Origin: Thuidium tamariscinum
Lineage: Eukaryota > Streptophyta > Bryopsida > Hypnales > Thuidiaceae
DNA: 64,000 nt
Assembly (NCBI GenBank): GCA_947034885.2
Contig: OX344751.2
Coordinates: 41,073,082 to 41,137,081 of the forward strand
Direction of reading: 5' to 3'
Position 1 is the stretch's first letter, and the number at the start of each line of letters is the position of its first letter. Shown one piece after another: positions 3,062 through 63,826 of the stretch. The notes beneath the pieces are model-generated. The model saw only the letters and a list, made by a program, of their open reading frames with translations, made no database searches and was not told where the DNA came from. The translations under genes were made by a program, and so were the position numbers.

Positions 3062-4986
3062 TCAAGTCCTCCAATGCATCTGCTGATCTGCATACTTGCC
3101 CATGAATGTCTTAACAGACCTACGCGACTTCAAAGTGAATGCATCATTAGGCTTGAGTTCATTAGCTTTGTTCAAGTCCTCCAATGCATCTACATACTTG
3201 CCCATCATTATCTTAACATCTCCACGCCACTTCAAAGTGGATGCATCATTAGGCTTGAGTTCGTTGGCCTTGTTCAAGTCCTCCAATGCATCTACATACT
3301 TGCCCATCATTCTCTTAACATCTCCACGCCACTTCAAAATGGATGCACCATTAAGCTTGAGTTCATTAGCCTTGTTCAAGTCCTCCAATGCATCTACATA
3401 CTTGCCCATCACTCTCTTAACAAACGCACGCGACATCAAAGTGAATACATCATTAGGCTCAAGTTCATTAGCCTTGTTCAAGTCCTCCAATGCATCTACA
3501 TCCTTGCCCATCGCTCTCTTAACATCTCCACGCCACCGCAAAGTAAATGCATCATTAGGCTTGAGTTCATTAGCCTTGTCCAAGTCCTCCAATGCATCTA
3601 CATACTTGCCCATCACTCTCTTAACATCTCCACGCCACTTCAAAGTAAATGCATCATTAGGTTCAATTTTATTGGCCTTGTTCAAGTCCTTCAATGCATC
3701 TACATCCTTGCCCATCACTCTCTTAACATCTCCACGCAACTTCAAAGTAAATGCATCATTAGGTTCAATTTCATTAGCCTTGTTCAAGTCCCCCAATGCA
3801 TTTGCATACTTGCCCATCATTTTCTTAACTTCTCCACGCCACTTCAAAGTGAATGCATCATTTGGTTTAAGTTCATTGGCCTTGTTTAAGTCCTCTAATG
3901 CATCTGTATATTTGCCCATCAATCTCTTAACATTTCCACACGACTTCAAAGTCAATGCATCATTAGGTTCAATTTCATTAGCCTTGTTCAAGTCCCCCAA
4001 TGCATTTGCATACTTGCCCATCATTTTCTTAACTTCTCCACGCCACTTCAAAGTGAATGCATCATTTGGTTCAAGTTCATTAGCCTTGTTCAAGTCCTCC
4101 AATGCATTTGTATACTTGCCCATCATTCCTTTAACACGTCCACGAAACTTCAAAATCATTGCATCATTAGGCTCAAGTTCATTAGCCTTGTTGAAGTCCT
4201 CCAATGCATCCGTATACTTGTTCATCAATCTCTTAACATCTCCACGCAACTTCAAAGTGAATGCATCATTAGGCTTGAGTTCATTGGCCTTATTCAAGTC
4301 CACCAATGCATTTGTATACCTGCCCATCATTCTTTGAACATCCCCATGCGACCTCAAAGTAAATGCATCATTAGGTTTGAGTTCATTAGCCTTGTTCAAA
4401 TCCTCCAATGCATCTACATATTTGCCCATCAGTCTTTGAACATCTCCACGCCGCTGCAAAGTGAATGCATCATTAGGCTTGAGTTCATTAGCCTTATTCA
4501 AATCCTCCAATGCATCTGCATATTTTCCCATCATTCTTTGAACATCTCCACGCTGATGCAAAGTGAATGCATCATTAGATTGAAGTTCATTGGCCTTGTT
4601 AAAGTCCTCCAATGCAAATGCATACTTGCCCATCATTCTTTGAACATCTCCACGCCACTTCAAAGTGAATGCATCATTAGACTGAAGTTCATTAGCCTTG
4701 TTGAAGTCCTCCAATGCATCTACATATTTGCCCATCAATCGCTTAATTTCACCACGCCTTTTTAATATCAAAGCATTATTGGGCTTAAGTTCTTCAACTT
4801 TGTTGAAATCCTCTAATGCATCTGTATACTTGCCCAATAGTCTCTTGACTTCCCCACACCTTATCAATGTCCAAACATCACTAGGTTCAAATTCAATAGC
4901 TTTGTTTAAGTCCTCCAATGCATCTACATACTTGTCGATCACTTTGTTAACTTTTTCACCAATCTGCAATGTCAAAGTCCCATTAA
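3062..4986 (-). CDS. Tandem TPR array: 18 intact 34-residue repeats, C-terminal half of a kinase-TPR protein
   Basis: Eighteen consecutive repeats of exactly 34 residues (102 bp) are open in one frame. Each has the pattern A-L-E-D-L-N-K-A-N-E-L-x-P-N-D-A-F-T-L followed by R-G-D-V-K-R-M-M-G-K-Y, which is a tetratricopeptide repeat (small residues and a Tyr at the usual positions, Pro-Asn before helix A). TPRs form superhelical protein-binding surfaces. There is no ATG at the start of the frame, and it lies on the same strand downstream of a kinase exon, so it should be the C-terminal part of that gene. Repeats 9-10 and 11-12 are nearly the same, suggesting a recent two-repeat duplication. The upstream edge is the TTAA junction of a MITE. 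The array ends after a small insertion near 3083-3090. Confidence 0.7.
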
Positions 4987-6630: not shown

Positions 6631-8457
6631 TTAAAAGTCCAAATACAAACCTGTCATTAGTACATACTTCACATACTTCAATTCTTTGCAAATGTCATCA
6701 AAAGTTGGACGACTTTGCGGCTTGGGATTCCAACATTTTTCAATCAAAGCTCGCAATTGAAAAGGACATTGAGTGGGAAGCTTTGGACGATCACCCTCCA
6801 ATATCATTGCCTTCATCTTTTTTGGATTGTTAATGTGTCCAAAAGGCTCTTCTCCAGTCAATACTTCATAGCACACCATTGCAAAGCTATAAATATCACA
6901 TTTGTGAGGATGCTTTGGTTCTGATGGATTACTCCCTTCAACATTCATTTGATTGCTTGCACTTTGAAGTTGTATCAACTCTGGTGCCATCCATCTACTA
7001 GTTCCAACATTCATTGTTTGCTCTGAATTTGTAGTGCTTCTTTTTTTGATTTTGGATACATTAAAGTCTGCCACCTTGGCTTGAATATATTCCAAATCCA
7101 TGCCAGGTGTCTTCACACTTTTGACAAGAATGTTGGACGACTTCAAGTCCCTATGCACAATTTCTTGTTCATGCAGGTACTTGCCTCCTTCTGCTATTTG
7201 GTGCATAATGTCAACTGCTTCCCAAATATTGAATGGAGGAGAATCATGATTCACTTCCAATCTACATTGCATTAATGTAAAGAGGTCTCCATCCATCAAT
7301 TCCATGAAAATAGAACACTTTCGTCTCTCTTGTGTGTAACAAAACATAGATGTGATGTTGGGATGGCAAAGTCGAGCAAGGATATCAACTTCTTTTAGAA
7401 ACTCCGGATTACTTTTTCCACGGAAAACCTTAACCGCAACTTCCATTTCCAACCACATGGCTTTGAATACAGTAGCTGAAGCCCCTTTTCCAATGGACAC
7501 CCCTTTCTCTGCCTTCTCAGAGATACTTCTCAATAATGTCAAATATTGAGAGAATTCCCATTTTGATTTTAGGATACTTGTGCTAGGCATTGGTGCCACT
7601 TGTAAAAGTCTTTGAAGCAAATAGCTTGCCAAATCCTTCTTGTCTCCATACAATGAAGGCAAGGTCAATGAAATTTTCTTCAAGAGATTTTCTTTGTCCA
7701 CATAGGCCTTTGTTTTGACAATTTCATTGATATCCTTGCTAATGTTTACCACTTGATCCAAGGTCAAACCTCTGGATGCTCCACATCTCTTGGACAAGGC
7801 AACTCGGCACAACTCCAAATGAAATCCCATGGATGAAACAAACTCTAACATGTTTACCGATGTCATTGCAACTGGTATCCATGCATCTTGGCTACATCCT
7901 TTAATGAATCTTTCAATTTCTGTGGCTACCACAAAAAGTAGCTTGGAGCTTAGTAGATGATTTCCCAACACTTTAGGTGCATATGATCCAATGTTTGTAG
8001 CACATAATGTATTTAAAAACACATTTGAACTTTCAATGACATCTTTGAGTTTATCGACAAGATATTGGCATTGTTCATTGTTGAATGCTTGTAGATGCAT
8101 CATTTGCACACGTTTTTTACAATCCAACAATTTTTTTGAGTATGTAGTCAAGTCCTTCTCAAGATTCTTATTGTCTCCTGTTCAGATTCATTGCATATTG
8201 TCAATATTCTTTAGTTGTCAAGAAAATTATAAAATCAACATATGAATACACTTATGGATAATGGCATTTATTTACTAACAATCACCTATAATTTGGCAAT
8301 AGATGATAATCATATATTCCTTAAGAAAGTAAGTAAGCACAACTATATCTTCTTGAAAACAAAAATAATAATGCAAAATAGAAATGGTAGGAGAATCACC
8401 TTCATAGTGCCTTGTTGATGAAGAAAGTAGACCATCCATACAATTTGGAATTGCCAT
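6631..8457 (-). CDS. Protein kinase (TKL-like) part of a kinase-TPR gene, two exons, DFN in place of DFG
   Basis: Exon 1 is 8457-8400 (ATG at 8457) and exon 2 is 8177-6651. The donor GAAG|GTGATT and acceptor GAACAG|GAGAC agree in phase, giving 528 codons plus one base. Residues 1 to about 240 form an alpha-helical region of unknown role. The kinase domain covers about 245-518: glycine loop G-K-G-A-S-A-T-V, V-A-V-K (Lys269), an alpha-C Glu near 282, H-R-D at 361-363, then A-D-F-N at 389-392 where D-F-G is usual, and A-P-E at 417-419. It looks like a Ser/Thr kinase of the plant TKL group. A donor ACAG|GTTTGT at 6651 leads toward the TPR array; if it is not used the frame stops at 6631. Catalysis is possible, since K, E, HRD and the DFN aspartate are kept. 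The downstream TPR exon is disrupted, so the whole gene may be non-functional. Confidence 0.75.
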
Positions 8458-9865: not shown

Positions 9866-10781
9866 TTAACCCCTAAAGGCCCATTGTCCCCTTGGGGGAC
9901 AATTTGGAATTTGGACAGGTTCCGTAGACCTCAATTTTTAATGAATCATTTTGAAATTTTCTCATAAGATAGGAAAACTGATTATCTTTGTGGGAATATA
10001 ATTTTTATTTCAATTGGTGCTCGGGAGAAAAAGTTATACCACAAAAAGCCCAGATTTTAACTTAGTGGGCAGAAAAATAAACCCACAAAAACTTGAAATT
10101 TAAAATTTTAATTTTTTAATCTTATAGATTATATTTTTGGCTAGGTGTGAAGCTTTGATTCATTCCATTTGGATTAGTTATGTGAAAATTATGAACATTC
10201 TTGTTTTCGGGTAATTTTTGAAAAAAATACTTATTAGATTCATTTCTGAATGCAATTTTCACAATTTTTCAAAATAAATTACTTGAAAAGGTTAAATTTA
10301 CTCACTAGAACAATCTCACCGTTGAAATTATTGTGTTTTAATTCCATCTTAGAGTTATTAACAATGTAATTTTTCTTTCAATCTTGGATCTACCTCTACT
10401 TAATAATTTTTTAAAGAATGAAAATCAAGCATTTTTTAAAAAAAATTCCTAGACTTTCAGCTCAATTCCTAAATTCAAATTTTTTTTAATTCATAGTCCA
10501 TAGTGTAAAAAAATTCAACAAATGGCAATTAAAGTCATCTGAAATTGCAAGACAATGTTTAAGAAAACTATGTTTTCTAACTTTGAATGCTCATATCTTC
10601 CAATCTATACGGTCAAACTTCATGAAATTTTTACCACATGATCTCAAACAAACAAAGTAGAAGATCCTACAATTAGATTTTATAAAAACACTTTTTTTTT
10701 GGTCTTTTGGATGAATGCAGCAAAAATGGCAGTTGTGAGTGGTTTTTGACAGAAAAATGGCCTTGGGCCTTTAGGGGTTAA
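9866..10781. mobile_element. piggyBac-type MITE, full length
   Basis: TTAACCCCTAAAGGCCCA at 9866-9883 matches exactly the reverse complement of the right end at 10764-10781, an 18-bp inverted repeat including the TTAA target. The roughly 0.9-kb interior is AT-rich and non-coding. The terminus starts with the same TTAACCCCTAAAGG as the autonomous element at 46562-54134, which makes that element a candidate source of transposase. A partial relative of its right end lies at 35147-35293. Confidence 0.85.
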
Positions 10782-21860: not shown

Positions 21861-24800
21861 ATGAGATGGGCACAATGGATTGCTCTGTCCTCCGCGCGTG
21901 CGTCCCGATCGCTCACAAGCTCCACCACGCCGGGTGTTTGCGGATTCCATGTAGGTGTTCACCATTCACTTCGCTTTTAAATAAATAACCTGTGCTTGGA
22001 ATTCAGATACAGAGAGTAGTTTGAGGATTTTAATAGCGTTGTCGATGTCGTGGTTTAAAGTTTGCAGAGTGATTGAAATTAGTTGTAGTCCTTCTAATTG
22101 ACGAAATGACGTAGTCAAGGGGTTGCGAGCGAGCTAAGTTTTGTGCATTAGGGGATGCCGGGGACCTGGAACCCTAATTGCCGAATGGAAGCTCGGAGGG
22201 TAAGAATCTACCTGGAAAAGTTCTGGGTGTTGTGATGTTCTGTAGGTTTTGGATTGACAAGAATGTTCTAGGTTTGAGGTTTTGAATTCTCAATTGAGAT
22301 ATTTGACGTGTTGCTAAGTTTGAATTACTGGTACTAGCAGGGGTCTTTAGGCGCAGCTGCAATCTTCAATAGACAGGGGTACGTCGTACCTTTTCATGCT
22401 TTGGCTGTACAAGAGAACGAAACGCAAGTGTTAGACGATGACCGCCAAGATGTGGATACTAATTTTCTCACCAGTGAAAACGTTCGTTCACAAATCTCAA
22501 GAAATGCAACAAGCACTGAAGAAGGTGTGAAGCTCTTCTTTCTGGCAAGTGCGCAATTTTTCTGGTTCACCTTGGTCAGCTGGAGTTCAGCACTCTGAAA
22601 GACTGGCTCAGGACTTGTGGAATTAACTTAACTAAAATTTAACTAACTCTAGATTATTTTGTTTTATCTAGACAATCAAACTCCTATCATCCTTACGAAA
22701 ATGAATTATTTCATTTTGGGGTATAATAGACTTCAATTCTCACTGAAAAATTAAAGAATTTGAGGTGTTTAGGAGTCATTCTATTTACTCCCTAGGATTT
22801 TTCTATCAGTAGTTTAGGATTGAGCAGCTCCGTTGACATCCCATTGGCTTCTTGACGTTGGACCTACATTATTTCGGACACTGATTTGACCTGAAATTAC
22901 TTAAATTCGAGTTCTTGCTGCAGGTTTAAAAGTGATGCTTACGTTTTGCGTGCTTTCCTTTTCTTTTTCAGCCTTTTCCGGAAGCTCGTCAGCTCTCGAA
23001 GCAGACTTACTTAATCCGAGGAGAGATGTTGAAGGAAGACACCGAGTATCAGACATGCTGATCGACTCGCATGGAAGGAGGCATAACTATCTCAGAATCT
23101 CACTCACCGAGCGCTGCAACCTTCGCTGCAATTACTGTATGCCTGCGGAAGGTGTGGAGTTGACACCAAACGCTGCACTGCTCTCTCAGAATGAGATCAT
23201 CCGAATTGCACGCACTTTTGTTGCAGGTGGGGTTGATAAGATACGGCTCACAGGCGGGGAGCCAAGTATCAGGTCGGATATTGAGGAAATATGCGAGCAG
23301 TTGAGTAGCCTACCAGGTCTTAAATACTTGGCTATGACTTCCAATGGCATTGTTTTGACGCGGAAACTGCCTCGATTGCAGGCGGCTGGGTTGAATCAGC
23401 TAAACATTAGTCTAGACACATTGGTGCCAGCCAAGTTCGAGCTCCTTACCAGACGGAAAGGGCATCATAAAGTCCTACAATCCATTGACACAGCGTTGGG
23501 ATTGGGGTTCTCACCAGTGAAGGTATGACATCTGTCTGTTGTGAACTCTGTTTTTTTGCCAGTTTGCTTGCAATTTCGAAAGCAGCGAGTTTTAAGCCTT
23601 GAAGGACCATAAAGCTTAAATTGGGTTTCATGTTTCTTAGCACTTTGGAGTAGGTCACATTGAGACCTTCTTCTGTTCAATTATGTCGTCAGAGTACCCT
23701 TCACGGTGAAATGATTTTCTGTAATTGTTCTGAACATTCATGGTATTTTCACAATTGTTTTGGCAAGCTGGGGCAACTCGATCTCGTAGTGTTATGGACT
23801 GTCTTTTATTTTCCATTTGCTATGGTTGCACAGGTAAATACAGTCATAATGAGAGGTCTCAATGAAGATGAGATCCTAGATTTTGTTGAGTTGACGCGCG
23901 AGAAACCTATCAACGTCCGGTTTATAGAGTTCATGCCTTTTGATGGTAATGTTTGGAATTCTAAGAAGCTGGTTTCATACATGGAGATGATGCACACGAT
24001 TGTAAGTCCTTTAACATCCTTTGCATATTCAGTAGTCAGTGTTGTAGCAGGTTTTCAAATTGCTTTTGATTAATCGGAACTTCCTCAAGTCTACGATGCC
24101 TCATGGTTTAGGCGTTGAAGTCGCTACCGGTAATAGGGAGAACGTTACACTGTGTCGCTGTTTGCTATTCATTGTGATGAAATCTTTTGAAGCTATATTT
24201 TTGATGTTTTGAGGACTGACGCCTTGGAAATTGTGTCCCAGAAGAGAAAGTTTCCAAGTATATACAGGTTGAAAGACCACCCTACCGACACAGCTAAGAA
24301 TTTTCGGGTGGAGGGACACCAAGGCTCGGTGTCTTTCATCACCTCGATGACGCAGCATTTCTGCTCGGGCTGCAATCGGTTACGGCTCATGGCTGACGGC
24401 AACCTCAAAGTCTGCCTGTTTGGTCCCTCAGAGGTGGGCCTTATACCGATGATTATGTATATTCAAAGCTGTTTGATTTGTTATTCTCATCACTCTATTC
24501 AACCTCTCAAGAAGAATCTTTCCAAGTTAAAGTGAGAAAGCCGTTGTTACCAGTCTGATGTTGTACACCTGTCAGCCAATTATTTGACATTTAATGGGAA
24601 CTAAGCATATTATATCAGATACTATGGGAGGCTTGTAAAGCATGATTCAAAAATGTCTGTATTCGAGCAAGCAAAGTTTACCGTAGGGACCAATAGCTTA
24701 TATTGTTCGGAATTGGAAGTGTGCGTGTGGGATTTAAAACGGAATCAATTAACTGGCTTGAACCACATCTAATTTCGTTAAGTTGTATGCTTGTGGTGGT

Positions 24801-28785: not shown

Positions 28786-29766
28786 ATGGTGAAGCCCGTG
28801 GCCAATGTCGACCTTGAGGAGGTGGATGTGGTGGTGGCGGCTTTGAATCCCGACTTAGGCTACCTTACTCCCTGGTTGGAGCTTCTGCGGGGTTGTCACT
28901 TGATTGTGGTGCAGGGGAAAGACTTTGCATCTCCGATCCGCTTGCCGGAAGGGTTTCAAGACGTCGAGGTTTACACTCGCTCCTCGATCCTGGAGCTTTT
29001 AGGTCCTGAGCTTTTCGGGAAGCTGAAACTCACCGGGGATGCTTGCCGGAGCTTCGGTTACCTGGTCTCAAAGCGGCGCTATGTTTTCACAATGGAAGCC
29101 GGTTGCGTTCCGGCGGTCGATCCGGAGGGTTACGTCGTCAACCCCGTCGTGGAGCATCTTGTGAACCTCAAGACGCCTGCGGCGCCTTTCTTCTTCAACA
29201 CGTTGTACGATCCTTTCCGCGTGGGCGCCGATTTCGTACGTGGCTACCCGTTCAGCTTGCGTGAGGGAGTGCCGACAGCGATCTCGCAAGGCTCCTGGTT
29301 GAGCAGCTCTTCGTCACGGTATGTGGATGCGGTGCTTACCGTGCCGAAGAACGTGCTGTTCACGTTCAGCGGGATCAATCTTGCGTTTGACAGGCATCGC
29401 GTCGGGCCGCTCATGTTTCAGCCACCGCAAATTGGCGACGCCGGGGAGCTTTGGGCGGGGTTGTGTTGCAAGACGATCTGTGATTACTATCCTTGGGGAA
29501 TCAAAACGGGCTTACCCTACGTTTCTCGCAACGAGAAAGGTGAGTTAGGGCAAGGGGAAGGGGATAGGTTGGAATTGATTGCGCAGTTTTTTCATACGAC
29601 GCGGTTGAGTGGCAATCCACTGGACGTCGAGGGCTGTTATCTTGAGTTGGCGGAGCAAGTGGCGGTGAAGTTGTCGTCTGCAGATCCAATCTTCAAGGAG
29701 GTGGCATTGTCTATGGAGGCTTGGATTCTAGCGTGGAAGAAGCTTGGACATCCCTCTAGCGCTTGA
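28786..29766 (+). CDS. RGP: Reversibly glycosylated polypeptide / UDP-arabinopyranose mutase-like protein, divergent, lacking DXD
   Basis: An intronless frame of 326 codons opening with ATG in AAGATGG. It matches the plant RGP/UAM family, which interconverts UDP-arabinopyranose and UDP-arabinofuranose at the cytosolic face of the Golgi, over its whole length: P-F-F-F-N-T-L-Y-D-P-F-R at 134-145, G-A-D-F-V-R-G-Y-P-F-S-L-R-E-G at 147-161, and N-L-A-F-D-R at 198-203. Arg152 sits where the reversibly glycosylated Arg158 lies in Arabidopsis RGP1. The usual I-D-D-D-C is replaced by M-E-A-G-C at 103-107 and V-Q-D-G-D by V-Q-G-K-D at 42-46. The loop after the G-x-W-L motif is shortened and Ser-rich. 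Usual family length is about 340-365. The frame is intact, but mutase activity is doubtful; it may be a non-catalytic paralogue, as some class members act in heteromeric complexes, or an intronless retrocopy. Confidence 0.85.
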   Translation: MVKPVANVDLEEVDVVVAALNPDLGYLTPWLELLRGCHLIVVQGKDFASPIRLPEGFQDVEVYTRSSILELLGPELFGKLKLTGDACRSFGYLVSKRRYVFTMEAGCVPAVDPEGYVVNPVVEHLVNLKTPAAPFFFNTLYDPFRVGADFVRGYPFSLREGVPTAISQGSWLSSSSSRYVDAVLTVPKNVLFTFSGINLAFDRHRVGPLMFQPPQIGDAGELWAGLCCKTICDYYPWGIKTGLPYVSRNEKGELGQGEGDRLELIAQFFHTTRLSGNPLDVEGCYLELAEQVAVKLSSADPIFKEVALSMEAWILAWKKLGHPSSA

Positions 29767-46561: not shown

Positions 46562-47346
46562 TTAACCCCTAAAGGTTTTGGGAGCGGTTTTGGCAAAAGT
46601 AGTCAAAATAGGGGTGTTTGTGGAATGTGAAGAGTGGACAAGAATCAACAATTTTTTTTGGACCACCAACCGTAAGATCTTGAACTTGACTTCATTGTGA
46701 AGACACCTACCAATTTTCAACCGCTAATTCTTTGAATTGAGTGAGATCTAATAGTTCAAAGTTGGAATTTATTTTTTTCTCACTGTAAAAATCCCGGGCA
46801 GCTGCACTTAGAATGCCAAATTCCTCATCTATACTATTCCATTTTCATTGTAACTCTTTAGATTGCATTGCCCATACAAGTTAGGAGCATGCTCAAAAAA
46901 TTTGAAAGTCATTACATTCTTAGAACATTAGAAAAACAACATGATTGTAGGCATAGGTTTCAAAAAAGTAGTATACACTAGCATTTTTTCCATTGTCAAA
47001 TTGGAACTTCTAAAGAGTTTGGATCAAAAATTTGAACGGTGGAGGCAATGATGTATGCATACTTCATCATTAGGGATTGTTATCTATGCACAATTTGAAA
47101 ATCTCAAAATTTGGCATCACAAATTTAGCCACAGCCTTCTATGTCTGTTTCAGGTCTTTGGGCACCCCTCAAATGCTGGACTTCAGAGTGCACATCGTGA
47201 GTCCACTCTTACTAATTCTGACAACAAAAATATTTCTACTCAAAATTATTATCTCCCCAACCTGGCCCTACTGTTGGACTCCCGCAGGCAGCAGCTGCCC
47301 CGCCAGGGTCGCCAACTTGCCAGCGGCTGGCCCCCGGCAGGGAAGC

Positions 47347-47580
47347 TGGCCCGGCCAGGAAAGCTGGGTTGGCTGGCCCGGCAGGGGAGCTGCCCCAGCC
47401 AGGAGAGCTGGGCTGGCTGGCCCGGCAGGGGAGCTTCCCCGGCCAGGAGAGTTGGGCTGGCTGGCCCGGCAGGGGAGCTGCCCCGCCAACCTGCCAGCGG
47501 CTGGCCCTGCCAGGGTTGACCAGCCAACAGCTGGCCCCGGCTGGGGAGCTGGGCTGGCCAGCCCTTTTACCAGCCTTTTT
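47347..47580. repeat. GC-rich 44-bp minisatellite inside the piggyBac element
   Basis: CTGGCCCGGCAGGGGAGCTG starts successive units at about 44-bp spacing, in three good copies followed by shorter degenerate ones. The sequence reads openly in several frames on both strands because of its composition, but these frames share no protein character. It contrasts sharply with the AT-rich surroundings. Confidence 0.8.
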
Positions 47581-47679
47581 GCCCAGTGGGGGTAGGTTTA
47601 GGGCTGAGTGTGGGGGGATGCCGTTCCAGTGGGCGGAACACTTGCCCACTGGTCATGCCATACTCCTTTAGGCCAGCCC

Positions 47680-47742
47680 AACTTCTTCATGCTCCAGGGA
47701 CTCTCATGCTCCAGGGACTATCATGCTCCAGGAACTCATTTT
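47680..47742. repeat. 17-bp tandem repeat inside the piggyBac element
   Basis: TCATGCTCCAGGGACT is repeated three times with one or two changes, at 47686, 47703 and 47720. Confidence 0.75.
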
Positions 47743-47912
47743 AGCACCTACAGTCCTTAGATTGGAATCCCTACAGAATAAAATTTGAGTAAGTCTTACG
47801 GAATATTTTGACATACAATCTTTCACCAAAAATTAACATTACTAGTACAAAAGATTTTTTTAAATTTTAAATGTCATAAAACACATATATAAAGTTCTAT
47901 AGTAAACTTGTA

Positions 47913-48175
47913 GAAGGGATAGGAAAAAAATCCATAGAGGGTGAGGAAATGACTCTCCAACATAGCCAAAAAAAATGGGAATGCAATAGATTTAGAAAAA
48001 GTATCAAAACAACTTAGAGAGGGGTAGGGAAATTATAGAGAAGGTGAGGAAATGACTCTACAACATAACAAAAAAAAATGGGAAGGCAATAGATTTCTTA
48101 GGGCCCAAAACAAACTTAGAGAAGGGTAGGGGAAAAAATAGAGAAGGTGAGGAATTAAGTCTACAACATAGCAAA
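47913..48175. repeat. Tandem repeat of about 100 bp next to the transposase 3' end
   Basis: The phrases AGAGGGTGAGGAAATGACTC, CAACATAGC and GGGAATGCAATAGATTT recur in three copies with a period of about 100 bp, the last shortened. The array lies just beyond the transposase stop codon and may be part of its 3' untranslated region. Confidence 0.75.
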
Positions 48176-48180
48176 TCACC

Positions 48181-51100
48181 TTATGGTCTTCGTGGGCGGT
48201 AGTTCCGTATTGCATTCTGGGGCCCATAGTGATACTCTTCAAAACATCCACGGTTCAAGCATAAGAACACGCGGTTGCATCTACGGCAGTAGAAGCTACA
48301 CTTTGTGTCCCCACACAGTAGGCATGGACGCCTCAAACGACTGGAAGTTGGCATGTGCGGGAGTGGGTCTTCTTCTTCATCCACATCAGTTCCTTGGCCA
48401 CGCCAATTTTGTGTGAGAGCATCACACAAGTCGGCCTTGAACTGCAAGTGAGTAATCGGTTTCTTCGGATGACGACGTTGACGCAAGGTCTCCAAATAGA
48501 TGACATACATATTGACCACCGTCGTGTCCAAAAGGAAGTAGAAAACTCGGTGCCACCACTTGTGTGACCTAGTCTGGCAAGAGTATGAGGCTCTAAGTTG
48601 ATCTGCCACATCCACCCCTCTCATGTGTGTGGTATACTCAAGGTGCATAGGAGAAGTCTGGATTGGGTCCCTTGTTGCCCCATTTCTACGTGGAACCGTC
48701 GGTACAGGCACACATGGAAAGCCAATAGGCAATGCATTCGTGGATAAGAGGAGCACTGGGCGTTTGTCCTTCCACATAACGCATGCAATGCCACGAGATT
48801 CATGCATTCTCCATTGTAATGTGCCTTGAGGTGAATTCCTCCAGTTTTGAACTACTTTCAATTCGGTTGGTAGGCCTACACGATTAGACCTCATTGTCCC
48901 CGTGGCATAAATTTCTTGTGTAGCCAACTCCGTAAATAATCCAATGCTAGAGAAATAGTTGTCTGTGACAACAACATGTCCCTTTCCCCCTTCGCCGTGC
49001 AACAATCTCATCACCACGTGGTGTGCCACATTAGCTTCTCCATGAACCACACCTGGTATTTCCTGTACTCCTTCATGGTTGGCCCCACAATAGATTTCAA
49101 AATTGTACACATATTTTGATACTGAATCTGCCAAGCACCAAACCTTTATGCCCCATTTCAATGGCTTCTTAGGCATATATTGCCTAGCAGGGCAATAGGA
49201 ACCCTTGTACCGTATCATCATCTCATCCACTGTAAGGTACTTCCCCAAAGACCACTCGCGCTTGAAACTATCCCTAATTCCATTTGCAAGCCACCGCACT
49301 TGCCCCATCTTGTCATAACCGGGCATATCTCTTTGCCCAACATAGTTTGAAGGATTCGTGACATGAAGGCATCTTGTGATCTCTGTGAACCTCAACCTAG
49401 ATAGAATTTTGGAAATCCGAGGACAATGGAAAAAAGAGCCTTCTTTGCTCCAATATGTCTTCATGTTTGGTTGCTTCTTCAATCCCATATAGATACGAGC
49501 CGCCAAATAGGCCTTCAAAGTTTGAATTGTAATAGGCAACCATCCTTCTCCCCCCCTTGTTTTCCCATGCTCATCCGGTGTAGTCGCATAACGATTAGTC
49601 TCTATCACTATTTTCCGCAATACAGTGTTTGGCCAAAACAATGTAAACAATTGCATAAATGTAGGCATCCTGCGAAAAAATGTTGTAGGACCCCGTGCAC
49701 CTTCAAATGTTCTCGGCTCTGGATCATAGGTGAAATTGGATTGTGACCATGTTGCATTACGGAACCTATGCTTCACACCCTCTGGATTATTCGGATCTCC
49801 TCCATCATCACTTTCATCCCCATCATATGCATCGTCAATGTCAGGCAAAGCATTCAACATTGAAGCACCTTCATGCGCACTCCTTGCTGGAACCCTCCCT
49901 CTGAATTGCAACCTTGAAGAGTTGGCATGATGAGGTATGGAACTAGGACCTTCTTCATCAAAATTGTAGCTCTCTTCATTTCTCCACTCCGGTTGAAAAG
50001 GGGGGACACCAAATACGTGGTCCTGCCTAAAACCACCATCATAAGTTTCTTGACATATCCAACCAAAAAATCTTCAAATTTTGAGAAAACAAGTTCATAA
50101 CATTTCACTTCATTTTGATAACATGGTGGACGACAAAAAAAACTCAATTGGTAAATTGAGACATTAGAATGACAAGATGACATTTTCACAGTGAGAAATA
50201 AAGTAGGTGTTGTAATTATATATGCTTTTTCACTAGGATTTGACTCAATGTAGAGCTATCATTATGTAAACATTGAAATTGCAAGGTTGCAAATAAAAAT
50301 TTGTAGTGTAAAATTCCTATCTATAGGAAGGATTTACATCTTTATAAAAACTCCATGAATTGCAATTGTTCATTGATTGAGATATCATTCATTGGAATTT
50401 TACATAAAGATTTATTTTTTCACTCTAATAGTTCTAAAAAATAAAATGAAAGATTCATAATCACACCAACTAAATATAAATGTATAAAGAACATGGATTT
50501 GGACCTATTTTGATCCGAGGACAATGAAGTTTGTATGTCAAAATAACTTCTTCCTAGGACGTTGTAGTGTCTCATTTCTTTTGTTACCAAAAAGTACATG
50601 TTCACTAGGATCAACACTTAGAAGCTTCATGAACTTTAGGGGTTGGATGAATTGACAATCTTATGTTTTCCACGTCTTATAATTTATTAGATTTTTGATT
50701 GATTGAAGTTCTATTCATTATAATTTGACCTCTTCAATATATTCTTCATTTGATCTCAATAGGCTTTCCAAAAAAATATAAATATATGAAGAACATCTAT
50801 ACATACTGATCTATGAATTTTTTTTCTAAATGTTTTCAAATTTTGTTGAAAATGGTAGTCTTTATTATATCCTTCCAAAAGGCTTTCCAAAAAAAGGTAG
50901 AAAATTCATTTTTACATCAAAAATATAAATAGGTGAAGAACATCTATACATATTGATCTATGAATTTTTTTTTCTAAATGTTTTCAAATTCTCCACATAC
51001 TTGTTGAAAATGGTAGTCTTTATTATATCCTTCCAAAAGGCTTTCCAAAAAAAGGTAGAAAATTCATTTTTACATCAAAAATATAAATAGGTGAAGAACA

Positions 51101-53110
51101 TCTATACATATTGATCTATGAAATTTTTTTTCTAAATGTTTTCAAATTCTCCACATACTTGTTGAAAATGGTAGTCTTTATTATATCCTTCCAAAAGGCT
51201 TTCCAAAAAAAGGTAAAAAATTCAAAATGCTAGCTAACTTCGAAATGCTAGCTAACTACTCAAAAAATGCCCAACAATACAGGGTGGGTTCTAGTTCACT
51301 AACCTATTGGATAATCCTAAACTGCCGTCCCCGGCAACAACCCCTTCTTGGCCTTGTTGAAAGTTATCTTCCGCCTGCTGTTGGTTCTGCCCACTGAAGC
51401 GCTCCACATTCAAATCTGGGAAGTCAACCGGTCCTCCTTCCATGCCACGCGGGAACGGCCTGCCACACGGGAACGGCTAGACCATTGGATTCCCTGCGTT
51501 GCCTCCCCCCATGCAGACGCGGGCTACCGTCTCCCGCAACGGTCAGAAAGCCCAGCGTCGATCGGATTTTCGGAAGGAGCGCTGATCGGATTTTCGGAAG
51601 GAGCTCCCTGGCTTGCAACCTGAGCACCACTGTTCCTCTTCGGCCGCAACTTCCTCGCCTCTCGGTGTCTTTGAGTGAAGGAAGCTTGGCTGTGCAGAAG
51701 CTCTGGAGGCCAACTTGCTGCTCCCATATAGTAATCACGTTCATCTTCTTCTGATTCGGAAGAATCACCCTCGCAAGATGATGGTCGTGGTTGTGCCCAC
51801 CCATCTTGTTGTTCTTGGCTTTCCACCAAGTCAAGATCTAGTTCACCAATAGGCATGTCTGTGGGGACTTCCGTAGGACAAGGATCTTGTGGTGCATCAC
51901 TACTACTGGAGGAGTTTGTATCGACAGGTGAGACGTCGCCTACAGTTTGCCCAATTTCCGGACATGCTGGCTGGAGTCGGTCACTCCGCCGTGGAGGAAG
52001 GTCCTCCTTTGCTAGCTGCCAACAAAAGCAAGGTGAGGTCAGTCATCTTCTTCATTTGTTTTTGAAAGCTCTGGATTCATTACTGAAGCAAACACAGTAT
52101 AAGCACAATGGTCTGATGGTCTTACCCATTTCCCTTTCTCGAAGCGTGCTTTCCTCGGCATTTTCTTCGTGGCAAGTTTGATTGCTTGTAGTAGGGAAAT
52201 CAGGCCACACTTGTTCCTTGACGAGTGTAGGAATGAGTGGGTGAAACTGGCGCCGTTGACACCACCCTAAGTACCTCGCTGCTTGTCTATAGAAGTGGTG
52301 ACGATAGTTTGCGGGTAGAGGATTTGCAGGCCACCTTGTTGTACCTCGTGGAACTGGTAGAGAACGCAAGTGCTTTGGATTTACCAAAGCCACCACCTTA
52401 GATGCTTGTGCAGATGATGCTCCTTCGTACTGAACGAGAAGTTCAAAAAGCTGATCTACAACCGAACTTGCATATTCACGGTCCTCCTGTATTGCGCCTT
52501 GTAAGGTAGAATCGATAAGTCTGAACTCTCTTCCTAACTGGCAGGTTGAAACTCTTGTATCGATCTGAAGTTGCAGCCGTTGAGAGAAGTGCGATCCACC
52601 CACGGCGCCACTGCTGGGAGCTTGACTCGGACCTCCACTAGCGCCGCAGTTCAAGTCGGTGCTGCTGGTACTGAACCTGCCGTCCCTGCTGCCGCGCTCC
52701 CCGTCCCTGCTGAAGCCGCCGTCCCTCCTGCCTAACTCCCCGTCCCTGCTGTCGAAGTGTTGCTGCCGCTGGTCTTCTTCAACTGCTCCTGCTCCATCGA
52801 TGAAGCTTGGACATGAGAGCTTTCGCTTTCTTGCTCCTCCCTCGCTACTTTGGAGATCCGGATCTGGATCCTTCGTCCCATCTCCGATGGCACCTGCCCA
52901 TGCAGACACAGACCGCCTCTCTTCCCGAATCTTTGTCCCCACTGTTGTTGCACCTCTAGATGAACACATAGATTGCCTCTCCACCTCGACTGGTTCTTGA
53001 GGAATTGTTATCTGCACGGGTATGTTTGCATCTAGAGACATGTTACAATGCCTATTGGATTGTGAATTGTGTGGAATGCTGGGGAAGTGTTTGTGGAATT
53101 GAGTCTTCAT
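48181..53110 (-). CDS. piggyBac transposase with long N-terminal extension, three exons
   Basis: Proposed exons are 53110-52126 (ATG at 53110 or 53041), 52011-51620 and 50022-48181. The junctions ATGG|GTAAGA to CAGCTAG|CA and CAG|GTTGCA to TTAGGCAG|GAC keep phase and give about 1049-1072 residues. The last exon is the transposase proper: the acid triad falls at L-T-V-D-E (Asp702 counting from 53041), V-V-T-D-N-Y-F (Asp790) and G-V-D-V-A-D-Q-L (Asp907, Asp910). The C-terminal Cys/His-rich domain (about 1003-1034) begins C-L-L-C and is followed by C-R-R-C. The second exon supplies an acidic run typical of piggyBac N-termini (D-S-S-E-S-E-E-D-E-R). The first exon is Arg/Gly/Asp/Ser-rich, then has an unrecognised helical region. 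Known piggyBac transposases are about 550-650 residues, so the extension is unusual. It could instead be a separate protein joined only by my splice choice. Confidence 0.8.
50761..51240. repeat. 158-bp tandem repeat in transposase intron 2
   Basis: GGCTTTCCAAAAAA begins at 50761, 50881, 51039 and 51198. The last two intervals are 158-159 bp and these copies are almost identical, while the first unit is shortened to about 120 bp. The array lies wholly in the proposed intron between the second and third transposase exons. Confidence 0.9.
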
Positions 53111-54134
53111 TGTGTAGGAGTAATGACTAAGCGGCAAGGAGAGTGAGACAGGTTTTTCTGATTCCAAATATTTTGGAAGTTGTGCTCTTGCTTGTGGGAT
53201 GATGTGCTGAATTTCAGATTTAGTTCTTCCATATAATTGATCTTGTTTAGTTAGGCTAGAAATGAGTCGCCAAAATTGAATTTTGTTCTGTCAAAAAATA
53301 TTGTGAGATCACTGTGCATCTGAGATCATGGTCCCAAATTGATATTTGTGAGATCACTGTGAATCTGAGATCATGGTGAAGAATTGATGTCTAAAATTGT
53401 AGGTGTAAGCTATATTTAGTTTAGGTCATATCTCATTGAATGTTGCTACTTCTAATTTCTTGAATTCCCATGAGCAAGTCTTGGTTACAATTATGCCATG
53501 ATTTCAGCTTTGAAGCAGTACATCAAGAGGAATAAAATGTTGTATAGTGAATATGAAATTGTCATATTTTTGTTGTCAAAAATTTAGCCCAAAATATTGC
53601 ATTTGTAATTTATCATTCATAAGTCCAGGGTGCAGGCAAGATTGAGTTTGTAAACAAGACAGTAGGGCCCCATTTGCAGTTGGCCGTTATTGCTTCAACC
53701 CATGGTGAAGACTGGCACTTCCTATGTTCTACTTGGCCATGCTCTGCAGCTACCCTGACGAAATTTGAGAGTGTTATAAATGAGGACAAGCTCAAGACTG
53801 ACACAGAAAAAAGAGCAACGGGAACCCATTCTTGAGTGAACTCAAACCCCCTGCCTTGAACTCTGCCCCTGGCCCTTAGGGCAAGCTTACAGAAATTTAG
53901 CCTTAGTGTAAATTGTGGTGCCCATGCTGCCCTCTGAGTAGACAAAAGTACTTATCCTTGAATAACTTTTTTGATATGAATCAGAAAGGATTGAGAATTG
54001 TTGCGTCTGAAAGCTACTCCTCGACCACTCTTCCTATTAAAATTTCATACCCAAATTCTCAATATTCTACTAGTACTGGCCTGACCAAAAAAGCTATGTT
54101 TCCAAAAAACGTTGTTTGGTCCTTTAGGGGTTAA

Positions 54135-61100: not shown

Positions 61101-63826
61101 TATACAAATAAATCAAGGAATAGAGCTGTCTTGATGACGTTAAGGCAGTGAACATTCCTAAAACGCACCAAACTATTTTACCAAATAGTTAGAGCTTAGA
61201 GAGCCACCTAACCTTGCTTCGCTGGTATCGTCAAAGCGAACAACATAGCAATAGTGCATATTGTCCAAGGCCTTAATCTGAAGATCAAGGTGATGGGAGT
61301 CTCCACCCTGTTTTATGATGCTGCCATTCAAGTCAAGAACAGTCAAAACATACAGTTTCTAAAATATTGGGGCTGAAGATGCAGGCTCAAATTTTGAGGA
61401 ATAAAACCAACAGATTGACCCTACACTCTCCAAATTGATGTTTAGACTCTAAAAATGGGAATATACTCTTACTCATAAGCTTGTTTATACGCTTTTAAAG
61501 CACCCCTGTAATCACCAGAGGAATCCAAACTATTTCCGTAGTTGATTAAAGCGACAGCTTGCCCCTGCCACAGGAAAATCTCAGTCGAAAGTACCATTAC
61601 AATCAGAGTGCAATGAAATCAAAAACTGTGCACAGTTAGTGCACCGCCACAACGGTCAGTTCAAATCTATATATGCTGATAGGTCAGGCTACATTTTGGC
61701 AGATAGGTTCATGACGCAGGCAGATAGGTCTAATCACTACATGAAGGCAGGCAAAGTGTCCTGCTGATACATGGTTACAGTCGGTCAAGAAGCTACCCAC
61801 CTCCTCATGATGCACGCGCTCGCACACCTTGAAGCTTTTATGATGCCATTTCTTAGCCTTCTCATAGTTGCAAAGACTATCATAAGATTCACCAACAATA
61901 TCAAATGCATCTCCCATCTTCTCTTGATCTCCAAGGGTGACCACCACTTTCTTTAATCTTTTGGCAAGCCTCAAGTGCTGCACAGATCAGGGTGACGAGG
62001 AAAAAGTCACCGACAAAGACTCCGTTATCATCGAACTGCCATCGAGCCCACTAGTAGTTTGTAGTAACAAGAAATTTGTAGTATGCAGCGAAGACAAAAG
62101 GCTAGAGACAATATTACCTTACCAAATGACCATCACAGCATACCACCAAACATAAGTATTGAAGGAAAAAATAATGTGGAGGCATAAAAGATACATTAGA
62201 TACTAGGAGAAATTCCTGCTGCTTATCGTCTGGTTATATCACGAATACACGACACCAAGTATCCTTTCCTCGACCCTCTACAGAAATGGGTAGAAAGGAA
62301 CGGTACCTCTTCCCAATACTGCAGTTCATAGGCCTTCCCGATCATCTCCTTCAGAAATTTAAACTCTTGCAGACAGAGGATTCTCTCTGAAGTCGTGCCC
62401 CGAGCTGCCTCCACAAGTCTTTGCATGTCTTTATGCTTTGCCAAATGCTCATTAAATACTGCCAATTTAGGTATAGCTGCCTCTACAACTTCTTTATTTG
62501 TCTCTACTGTTTTCATCAAGACGTCCTCGTCCTGCAATTTTCTAACAATCCCGAGCGCAAGGTTGTAGCAATTCATTGAATCTTCATAGTGACGCTGTTT
62601 GAAGTGAATATCGCCCAGATTGATCAAACCTTTGACCTCTCCTTGAGGGTGCGGAAGTGCTCGGCAAATCTCAATGTCTTTTAGAATATGGGTCATTGCT
62701 GGACTCCACTGGCGCTTCTCAGCATACAGACGCCCCAAGTTATGGTGCACTCGGGTCCTTGCTGCATCGTATTGCCCAACCTCTTCTTCGTCACAAATTC
62801 TAAGTCCACGATTCAACAATCTTCGAGCTTCCAATGGCTCATCGGTGATCATCTTCAATGTACCGAGGTTGTTAAACGCATCAACTAGCTCAACTACAAA
62901 ATTAGAGGAGCCTGGCACAGGGTTGACTCTCAATTTGTTAGCAAGGTCCATGGCCTTGCTTAAATATTCCTTTGCTTTTGGCAATGCCAATACATCATCT
63001 TTCAACTCGAGCATGTCCATGTATGTGCGTCCTAGCTGAGTGTAAGCCCTTTGCTGCTCAACCAGATTATCTGCTTTCAAAGCAAGATCCAGATGCCGTT
63101 CCTACCAGCAGAAATATAAGTTAGTCGAACTCCTCATGACAATTGCACCCGGCCTGAACTGTCCTTGAAATCGGTAATGAGAAGTAAATGAATTGCTAGC
63201 CACTGGCCTAGCTTCCTACAGAGACGAAACAGCAGAGACACTTCATAAAACATACCCAAAGGACCAGATGCCGGCCATTAGATCACTTCCCTTGCTTTGA
63301 ATGGTTCCATGTGAATGATTCAGCTTAAACATTTAATCCAGTAAAAAATGAATCCGGCAAATTTGCTGCGATTGTAACAAACTTTTAGAAAAGAATAAAT
63401 GTTCAAGAAAAATTAAGACTCGAAGGGATTATCAGAAATTGTTTCTTAAGAAAGTCATGTTCTAACCACCAGTGACTGAATTACGGCACTATCTCATTGT
63501 AAGCGAAATCGGAAAGTGGTTGGTCAAAACCGTACCTGGTAGTGCAGAGCTTCACTATAGTCTCCAAGGCGATGGTAAATTTCGCCAAGACATTGGCAAG
63601 TGGGCATCAAATTCAGAAGAGGGCCTTCATCCTGTCGTTTCACAGAAATGTCGTAATCTAAACGAAACCAGGTTAAGGCGTCCACATAATCGCCACGGTC
63701 CTTGAAAGCATGGCCAATTTGATTCGCCCAGCGAGCCTCCTCTTCGCGATCTCCATTTTCTTTGGCATTCCTGTAGCAAGCTTTCATGCCGTCGGGTCCA
63801 TCCATCTTCGCGTTCTTTCTCCCCAT
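55166..63826 (-). CDS. TSK: TONSOKU/BRU1/MGO3 (TSK), LGN-TPR plus LRR genome-maintenance protein, 19 exons
   Basis: Exons (minus): 63826-63536, 63101-62307, 61977-61801, 61564-61473, 61320-61213, 60904-60049, 59874-59736, 59234-59115, 58887-58751, 58634-58511, 58180-58068, 57796-57685, 57545-57441, 57280-57214, 56992-56872, 56744-56571, 56426-56309, 56039-55309, 55237-55166. All junctions agree in phase and give about 1483 residues. TONSOKU acts in the nucleus in replication-coupled repair and inheritance of chromatin state. N-terminal LGN/TPR repeats open with [10 protein letters not shown] and [12 protein letters not shown] large acidic, Lys/Ser-rich exon (60904-60049) follows, then a beta-rich segment, then leucine-rich repeats such as L-D-L-S-H-N-L-L and L-K-L-S-G-N-R-L. 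The Arabidopsis protein has 1311 residues; the extra length lies in the middle and in exon 18, whose first 150 residues are an acidic insertion. The start of exon 8 and the last exon are the least certain. Confidence 0.93.
59396..59498 (-). ncRNA. 5S-rRNA-like sequence in a TONSOKU intron (5S pseudogene or 5S-derived SINE)
   Basis: On the minus strand TCCCATGACATCTCTGAAGT is followed by TAAGCGCCAGAGG and then TACTGGGATGGGTGATGCCC with GGAAGTCTGCTATGG. This parallels the plant 5S rRNA order CCCATCAGAACTCCGAAGTTAAGC, then TACTAGGATGGGTGACC, then GGGAAGTCC. The match covers about 85-100 bases, including the internal promoter boxes, but has too many differences for a functional 5S gene. It lies in the intron between the seventh and eighth exons, in the same direction as the gene. 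It is either an old 5S pseudogene or the head of a 5S-derived SINE. Confidence 0.6.
59543..59640. repeat. Short direct repeats in the same TONSOKU intron
   Basis: ATTTCGAAGTCTTTTGAAAA occurs twice, near 59547 and 59609, about 62 bp apart, with a C- and G-run segment between them. The pair lies just upstream, in the minus direction, of the 5S-like sequence and may mark the boundary of an inserted element. Confidence 0.6.

Follow-up and report, generated by a model that had tools for sequence, protein, structure and literature searches.

A probable two-gene piggyBac element in decay, member of a large lineage resident in the moss Thuidium tamariscinum

The piggyBac transposon is widely used in genome engineering and has been studied mainly in animals. 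In Trichoplusia ni, the piggyBac element has TTAA and short C-rich inverted ends, and its transposase is presumably the protein solved in PDB entries 6x67 and 6x68. The moss element described here resembles this system in its Asp-triad catalytic domain, its tail rich in Cys and His, and its short, C-rich inverted ends with TTAA, but differs in chain length (594 residues in T. ni versus about 855 predicted here) and adds a three-exon gene and a second conserved frame. The transposase of piggyBat (9c0f) is the best solved-structure match to the catalytic exon (E=4.4e-26); its chain has 578 residues, and no part of the match resembles ORF1. A transposase accompanied by a second conserved protein is known from PIF/Harbinger elements; the moss element may resemble them in this two-protein arrangement, but both transposase family and target site are different.

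PiggyBac elements have also been annotated in plants. The C-Fern table contains 1,230 PiggyBac entries (PMC6890710), and the superfamily appears in a list of those common to all groups studied (PMC4438587), in a list of plant DNA transposon superfamilies (PMC10794571) and in a statement ascribing it to 'insects, fungi and plants' (PMC10813416). The relevant parts of these sources use the same superfamily label as we do, but give counts or lists without element anatomy or a second gene. For the piggyBac transposase, the corresponding part of another source describes an N-terminal disordered region (PMC9499001). Our element likewise has a long non-catalytic stretch before the core, with an acidic, low-complexity exon 2, but this stretch is longer in the moss element, comprising about 240 residues ahead of exon 3. 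In a literature search that covered few subscription journals and did not query the two-gene form by name, we recognised no description of autonomous piggyBac elements in moss. Core, ends and plant superfamily label are known, whereas the second frame, the gene structure and the host appear unusual. In the following, we analyze a 64,000-nucleotide stretch of the T. tamariscinum genome (the window), which very probably harbors a two-gene piggyBac element, decayed in this copy, that belongs to a large, moss-resident lineage.

Element boundaries and catalytic exon

The element spans positions 46562-54134 (7,573 bp), with TTAA bounding each edge. As a preliminary description of the window had reported, its ends form a 14-bp inverted repeat including the TTAA: TTAACCCCTAAAGG begins at 46562 and its reverse complement finishes at 54134, with 14 of 14 bases paired. 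The same description had proposed to look in related genomes for other copies with these ends; a search of the T. tamariscinum genome itself (19 contigs, 363 Mb; the window sits on contig C3) yielded two more full-length copies with identical ends, measuring 7,764 bp (contig C7) and 7,795 bp (contig C9). The features of the ends and of the catalytic exon are as follows.

46562-46575, plus strand: left end, TTAA (46562-46565) and 10-bp terminal inverted repeat CCCCTAAAGG; matching end in L051 and L052, flanks unrelated
54121-54134, minus strand: right end, inverted repeat and TTAA (54131-54134)
48181-50026, minus strand: transposase exon 3, encoding the DDE/D catalytic domain and, at the C-terminus, the Cys/His domain, with the stop codon at 48181-48183; by PF13843 and PDB matches
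49225-49227, minus strand: catalytic Asp 1 (LTVDEMM), aligned to the PDB matches
48961-48963, minus strand: catalytic Asp 2 (VVTDNYF), aligned to the PDB matches
48601-48612, minus strand: catalytic Asp 3 (48612-48610) and fourth conserved Asp (48603-48601) in RGVDVADQ, aligned to the PDB matches
48229-48324, minus strand: C-terminal Cys/His-rich stretch, with seven Cys and a single His, numbered within the 630-residue frame

A profile search with the last exon, also proposed earlier, matched the 630-residue stop-to-stop frame of exon 3 to PF13843 (DDE_Tnp_1_7; E=1.9e-78, 264.7 bits, cut-off 22.4). Among solved structures, two piggyBac-type transposases were recovered, namely the piggyBat entry and 6x67 (E=5.2e-25). 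The Asp triad noted before could be placed codon by codon, together with the fourth Asp, and the Cys/His domain was confirmed by counting its residues (C584, C587, C592, C596, C599, C605, C610 and H615 in the 630-residue frame). Across related copies, exon 3 exhibited dN/dS values of 0.05-0.20 in 27 of 28 estimable pairs, with 17 of 45 pairs giving no estimate; in this comparison and that of the ORF1 domain below, dS was saturated (above 1) in most pairs. On the sequence evidence of catalytic-domain homology, Asp triad, TTAA edges, inverted repeats and Cys/His tail, the element is a member of the piggyBac superfamily. GC-rich repeats with a 44-bp period lie at 47333-47564, within the element and downstream of the gene.

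Transposase gene model and the overlapping second frame

A spliced gene of piggyBac type in a plant genome had been proposed for this locus, and this assignment is supported. Its architecture had been drawn as a transposase of about 1,050 residues with an unusual N-terminal extension, spliced at 52126/52011 and 51620/50022, for which comparison with copies and relatives leads to a different model (slashes within sequences below mark splice sites):

52127-53041, minus strand: ORF1, likely starting with the Met at 53041 and running up to the donor of exon 1; open in the three near-identical copies
52127-52450, minus strand: conserved domain within ORF1, about 110 residues long (NYRHHFYRQA..LGW.ER.QFH..I...IK..VWPD), from the alignment of relatives
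52126-52161, minus strand: transposase exon 1, MPRKARFEKGKW, in a frame different from that of ORF1 and overlapping the ORF1 end; MPR...F.K.KW-type start in relatives
52016-52125, minus strand: intron 1, GTAAGA ... GGCAG
51304-52015, minus strand: transposase exon 2, both edges revised by comparison with copies and relatives; donor GTTAGT at 51303
51524-51526, minus strand: premature TAG in exon 2 of the window copy, CAG in both sister copies
51506, minus strand: one nucleotide missing relative to both sister copies, frame shifted
50027-51303, minus strand: intron 2, revised; contains tandem 158-bp repeats (50843-51224)

Two frames cross the exon 1 donor, frame A containing the conserved ORF1 domain and frame B opening with MPRxxxFxKGKW at 52161 and joining exon 2 at 52015. 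The donor that follows 52126 has counterparts in relatives, ATGG/GT being present in all eight that were fetched separately, seven reading GTAAG and one GTACA (two of the eight carry stops in the ORF1 match and were excluded from the alignment); in a fourteenth sequence, L006, the exon 1 donor was not found. In the window and in all six relatives for which exon 2 was fetched, exon 2 opens with LA[KS][DE] behind an AG/CT acceptor, and frame B continues into it in phase. After splicing, frame A would reach a stop 4-11 codons past the donor, both in six relatives and in the window, where ORF1 would end 11 codons on (ASKGGPSSTAE, stop). Because of this comparison of acceptor and frame, we assigned the transposase start to 52161 and the domain to a separate ORF1. 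The supposed N-terminal extension would accordingly be a separate overlapping frame, and the acceptor AG ends at 52016, so that exon 2 starts at 52015 rather than 52011. The MPR...F.K.KW start was seen in 11 of 13 sequences, one of which (L070) has an internal stop, and near variants occur in L004 (MSRRARFEKGKW, MS for MP) and L005 (MPRRACFEKRKS, ending KRKS). When 30 codons upstream of the ATG were examined, 6 of the 13 sequences contained a stop.

The second junction was revised to 51304/50026. In both sister copies, exon 2 is open up to the GTTAGT donor, and the distal donor could be aligned to GTTAGT in L004 and to GTGGGT in both L005 and L077. L077 also retains frame and motifs across distal exon 2; the tail of this exon diverges fast, and for L078 no alignment of it was obtained. 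The 51303 donor leaves two bases, which fit the acceptor after 50027, and TTTCAG/G is found at the exon 3 acceptor position in L012, L013, L014 and L016. Outside the three near-identical copies, exon 2 open frames measured 205-313 residues in 19 of 30 matches and were shorter in the other 11. The sister copies imply transposases of 855 (12 + 229 + 1 + 613; C7) and 863 residues (C9) in place of about 1,050. In sum, a transposase starting at 52161, encoded by three exons and comprising about 855 residues when unbroken, is supported by comparison of the predicted frames. The 158-bp repeats of intron 2 are the site of gap differences between the three element copies.

The ORF1 domain is 52-59% identical to that of six relatives. 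Its dN/dS amounted to 0.11-0.25 in 19 of 21 pairs and 0.50 in one close pair, with one pair lacking an estimate, suggesting that the domain is under purifying selection. No credible relative of it emerged from PDB (best 5e2g, E 0.39) or Pfam, where one of seven members matched an amino acid permease N-terminus at E 0.047. Searches of NCBIfam and, at gathering scores, of Rfam gave no matches. In the genome, ORF1 had 106 matches. Among the best 51 ORF1/exon 1 matches (E up to 4.2e-25), 43 had a listed exon 3 match no more than 10 kb away and eight had none, proximity being judged against listed exon 3 matches only (70 scored of 840 candidates). Four weak matches of 32-38% identity (C2:24894925, C3:8512432, C6:22763639, C2:45072604) are located about 2 kb ahead of transposases that are 49-50% identical to that of the window. 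Because these matches precede such divergent transposases, ORF1 seems to be old in the lineage. A separate, weak match to the ORF1 domain (35%; C1:49389330-49389572) resides in an open frame of 945 residues that is not close to any listed transposase match, possibly representing an unscored element or another gene with an ORF1 domain.

The two frames could also be read as parts of one protein. In related copies, alternative splicing or +1 frameshifting at GGGAAAATGG might fuse ORF1 to the transposase, giving about 1,150 residues. The frames overlap by about 35 bases and ORF1 is conserved up to the donor, as such a fusion would predict, but the conserved ATG and the upstream stops described above suggest an independent start, and we consider this arrangement unlikely. 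Still less plausible is a functional window copy whose single fusion product of about 1,050 residues is composed of ORF1 domain, short exon 2 and catalytic exon, and in which acceptor 52012 and donor 51619 splice out the breaks. Its sites are all GT/AG and in frame in the window copy, where exon 3 is open, unlike in the sister copies. However, the relatives read AG/CTCGC where the window reads AG/CTAGC, the CTAG acceptor being absent in six of six (CTCG or CTTG), and preserve the MPR start in frame B; L004, L005 and L077 retain the downstream donor of exon 2; and the GCAG acceptor of exon 3, present in the two sisters and L004, is missing in four of seven sequences.

Recent copies and their decay

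The decayed two-gene element favored here can be compared directly with its sister copies. The window copy diverges from them by 0.66-0.69%, and pairwise differences among the three amounted to 50/7,549, 52/7,573 and 42/7,725 aligned bases. TTAA occurs at both edges in all three, as it does in the 932-bp element L079. A query that joined both flanks of the main element revealed no filled/empty site pair in this one genome; it returned its own two flanks and three partial matches of 70-71% running across the join.

Each near-identical copy carries at least one nonsense codon, and none has an intact transposase gene. The window copy had been described as apparently intact, with no breaks in its exons, but the revised exon 2 contains the CAG>TAG change at 51526-51524 and the one-nucleotide deletion at 51506. 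In each sister copy, one TAG is found inside exon 3, both at Trp codons of the window copy, while ORF1 is open in all three. In the three-copy alignment, C>T/G>A changes account for 60 of 71 substituted columns, the other 11 being other changes, and they affect 13 of 352 CG, 25 of 501 CHG and 22 of 2,407 CHH sites. This excess and its context pattern match the deamination expected of methylated plant cytosines. The window copy and its sisters appear to show the silencing and breakage of a transposon close to the present day.

Domestication of a piggyBac-derived gene by the host would account for the spliced gene and conserved domains, but it is highly improbable given that TTAA and inverted repeats bound several recent copies at different sites, all three of which are decaying. 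Equally remote is an origin of the three copies by segmental duplication instead of transposition, which near identity across 7.6 kb might suggest, since the similarity breaks off at TTAA on either side and the flanking DNA is unrelated.

A large lineage with dependent elements

Exact 14-mer ends of the decayed two-gene element are abundant in the genome (4,286 + 4,240, in total 8,526), as compared to 0 + 2 for a reversed control. Exon 3 had at least 71 matches (70 scored of 840 candidates), 27 of them listed without a stop in the matched stretch, and the left and right ends had 37 and at least 40 matches, respectively, the latter scored from 1,888 candidates. When the first 100 ends in the list were paired, 20 adjacent pairs in convergent orientation fell within 12 kb, and 16 of the 20 measured 915-939 bp. 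The window itself contains an insertion in this size range:

9866-10781, no strand assigned: second piggyBac-type insertion, 916-bp non-autonomous (MITE-like), TTAA and 18-bp inverted end

A genome search with this 916-bp element, whose TTAA ends match those of the main element, returned 7,228 first-look candidates, 40 of which were scored; the 41 listed matches comprise the element itself, 39 at 86-90% identity and one short match at 70%. With the autonomous element, L079 shares 192 bp at 73% at the right end and 143 bp at 70% close to the left end, and this subterminal sharing ties the non-autonomous class of about 0.93 kb to the lineage. For the 916-bp element in the window, the subterminal tie is weaker (z 3.3 and 4.0; one of these comparisons scored higher than any of 300 shuffles). 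Elsewhere in the window, Pfam matches mark host-type genes, namely TPR proteins (3062-4975 and 62223-63080), a protein kinase (6631-8151), a radical SAM piece (22932-23528) and a reversibly glycosylated polypeptide (28786-29766). In agreement with a moss host, an Lhca3-like exon had its four best PDB matches in chains from the moss Physcomitrium (6l35, 7xqp, 7ksq and 8htu; 342-344 bits), ahead of 9lut (331 bits) and a 'photosystem I chlorophyll a/b-binding protein 3-1' chain (316 bits), while an Lhcb exon was not discriminating.

A sister subfamily, L024, L025, L027 and L028, has the ends ACTTTAGGGGTTAA and pairwise differences of 33-46 in about 4,590 bases (0.7-1.0%); genes of this open subfamily lie near C1:40.67 Mb, C8:18.52 Mb and C3:6.09 Mb. 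Here, exon 2 and exon 3 form a single 951-residue frame, which is kept in three of the four copies (L024, L025, L028), indicating either a gain of intron 2 in the lineage of the window copy or its loss in that of the subfamily. The ORF1 matches of this subfamily, covering residues 203-312 only, are free of stops in the same three copies and contain two in the L027 locus. By sequence, the subfamily of L024, L025 and L028 may provide a transposase source elsewhere in the genome. The potentially active plant lineage envisaged at the outset therefore stands in part: the lineage is recent and its activity via other copies is possible, with three of four subfamily copies open, but the window copy is broken.

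As in the piggyBac family, the transposase would pair both ends and cut at TTAA through hairpins, leading to scarless excision and reinsertion at another TTAA. By analogy with the second protein of PIF/Harbinger elements, our guess is that ORF1 could act as a helper binding element DNA or transposase. The window copy would have moved recently and then been silenced by cytosine methylation, losing its transposase gene via the C>T change and the one-nucleotide deletion, and should now be mobile only with enzyme supplied by another copy. More tentatively, we propose a plant lineage in which two genes lie in overlapping frames, one for the transposase (about 855 residues) and one, ORF1, for an orphan protein aiding transposition; via other copies, this lineage may have been active in moss until very recently and driven thousands of non-autonomous elements.

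If true, a two-gene lineage would make it testable whether some piggyBac elements require a helper protein. Likewise, with its recent copies, a second conserved gene and dependent elements numbering in the thousands, such a plant lineage would, if borne out, be a natural source of plant-adapted enzymes.
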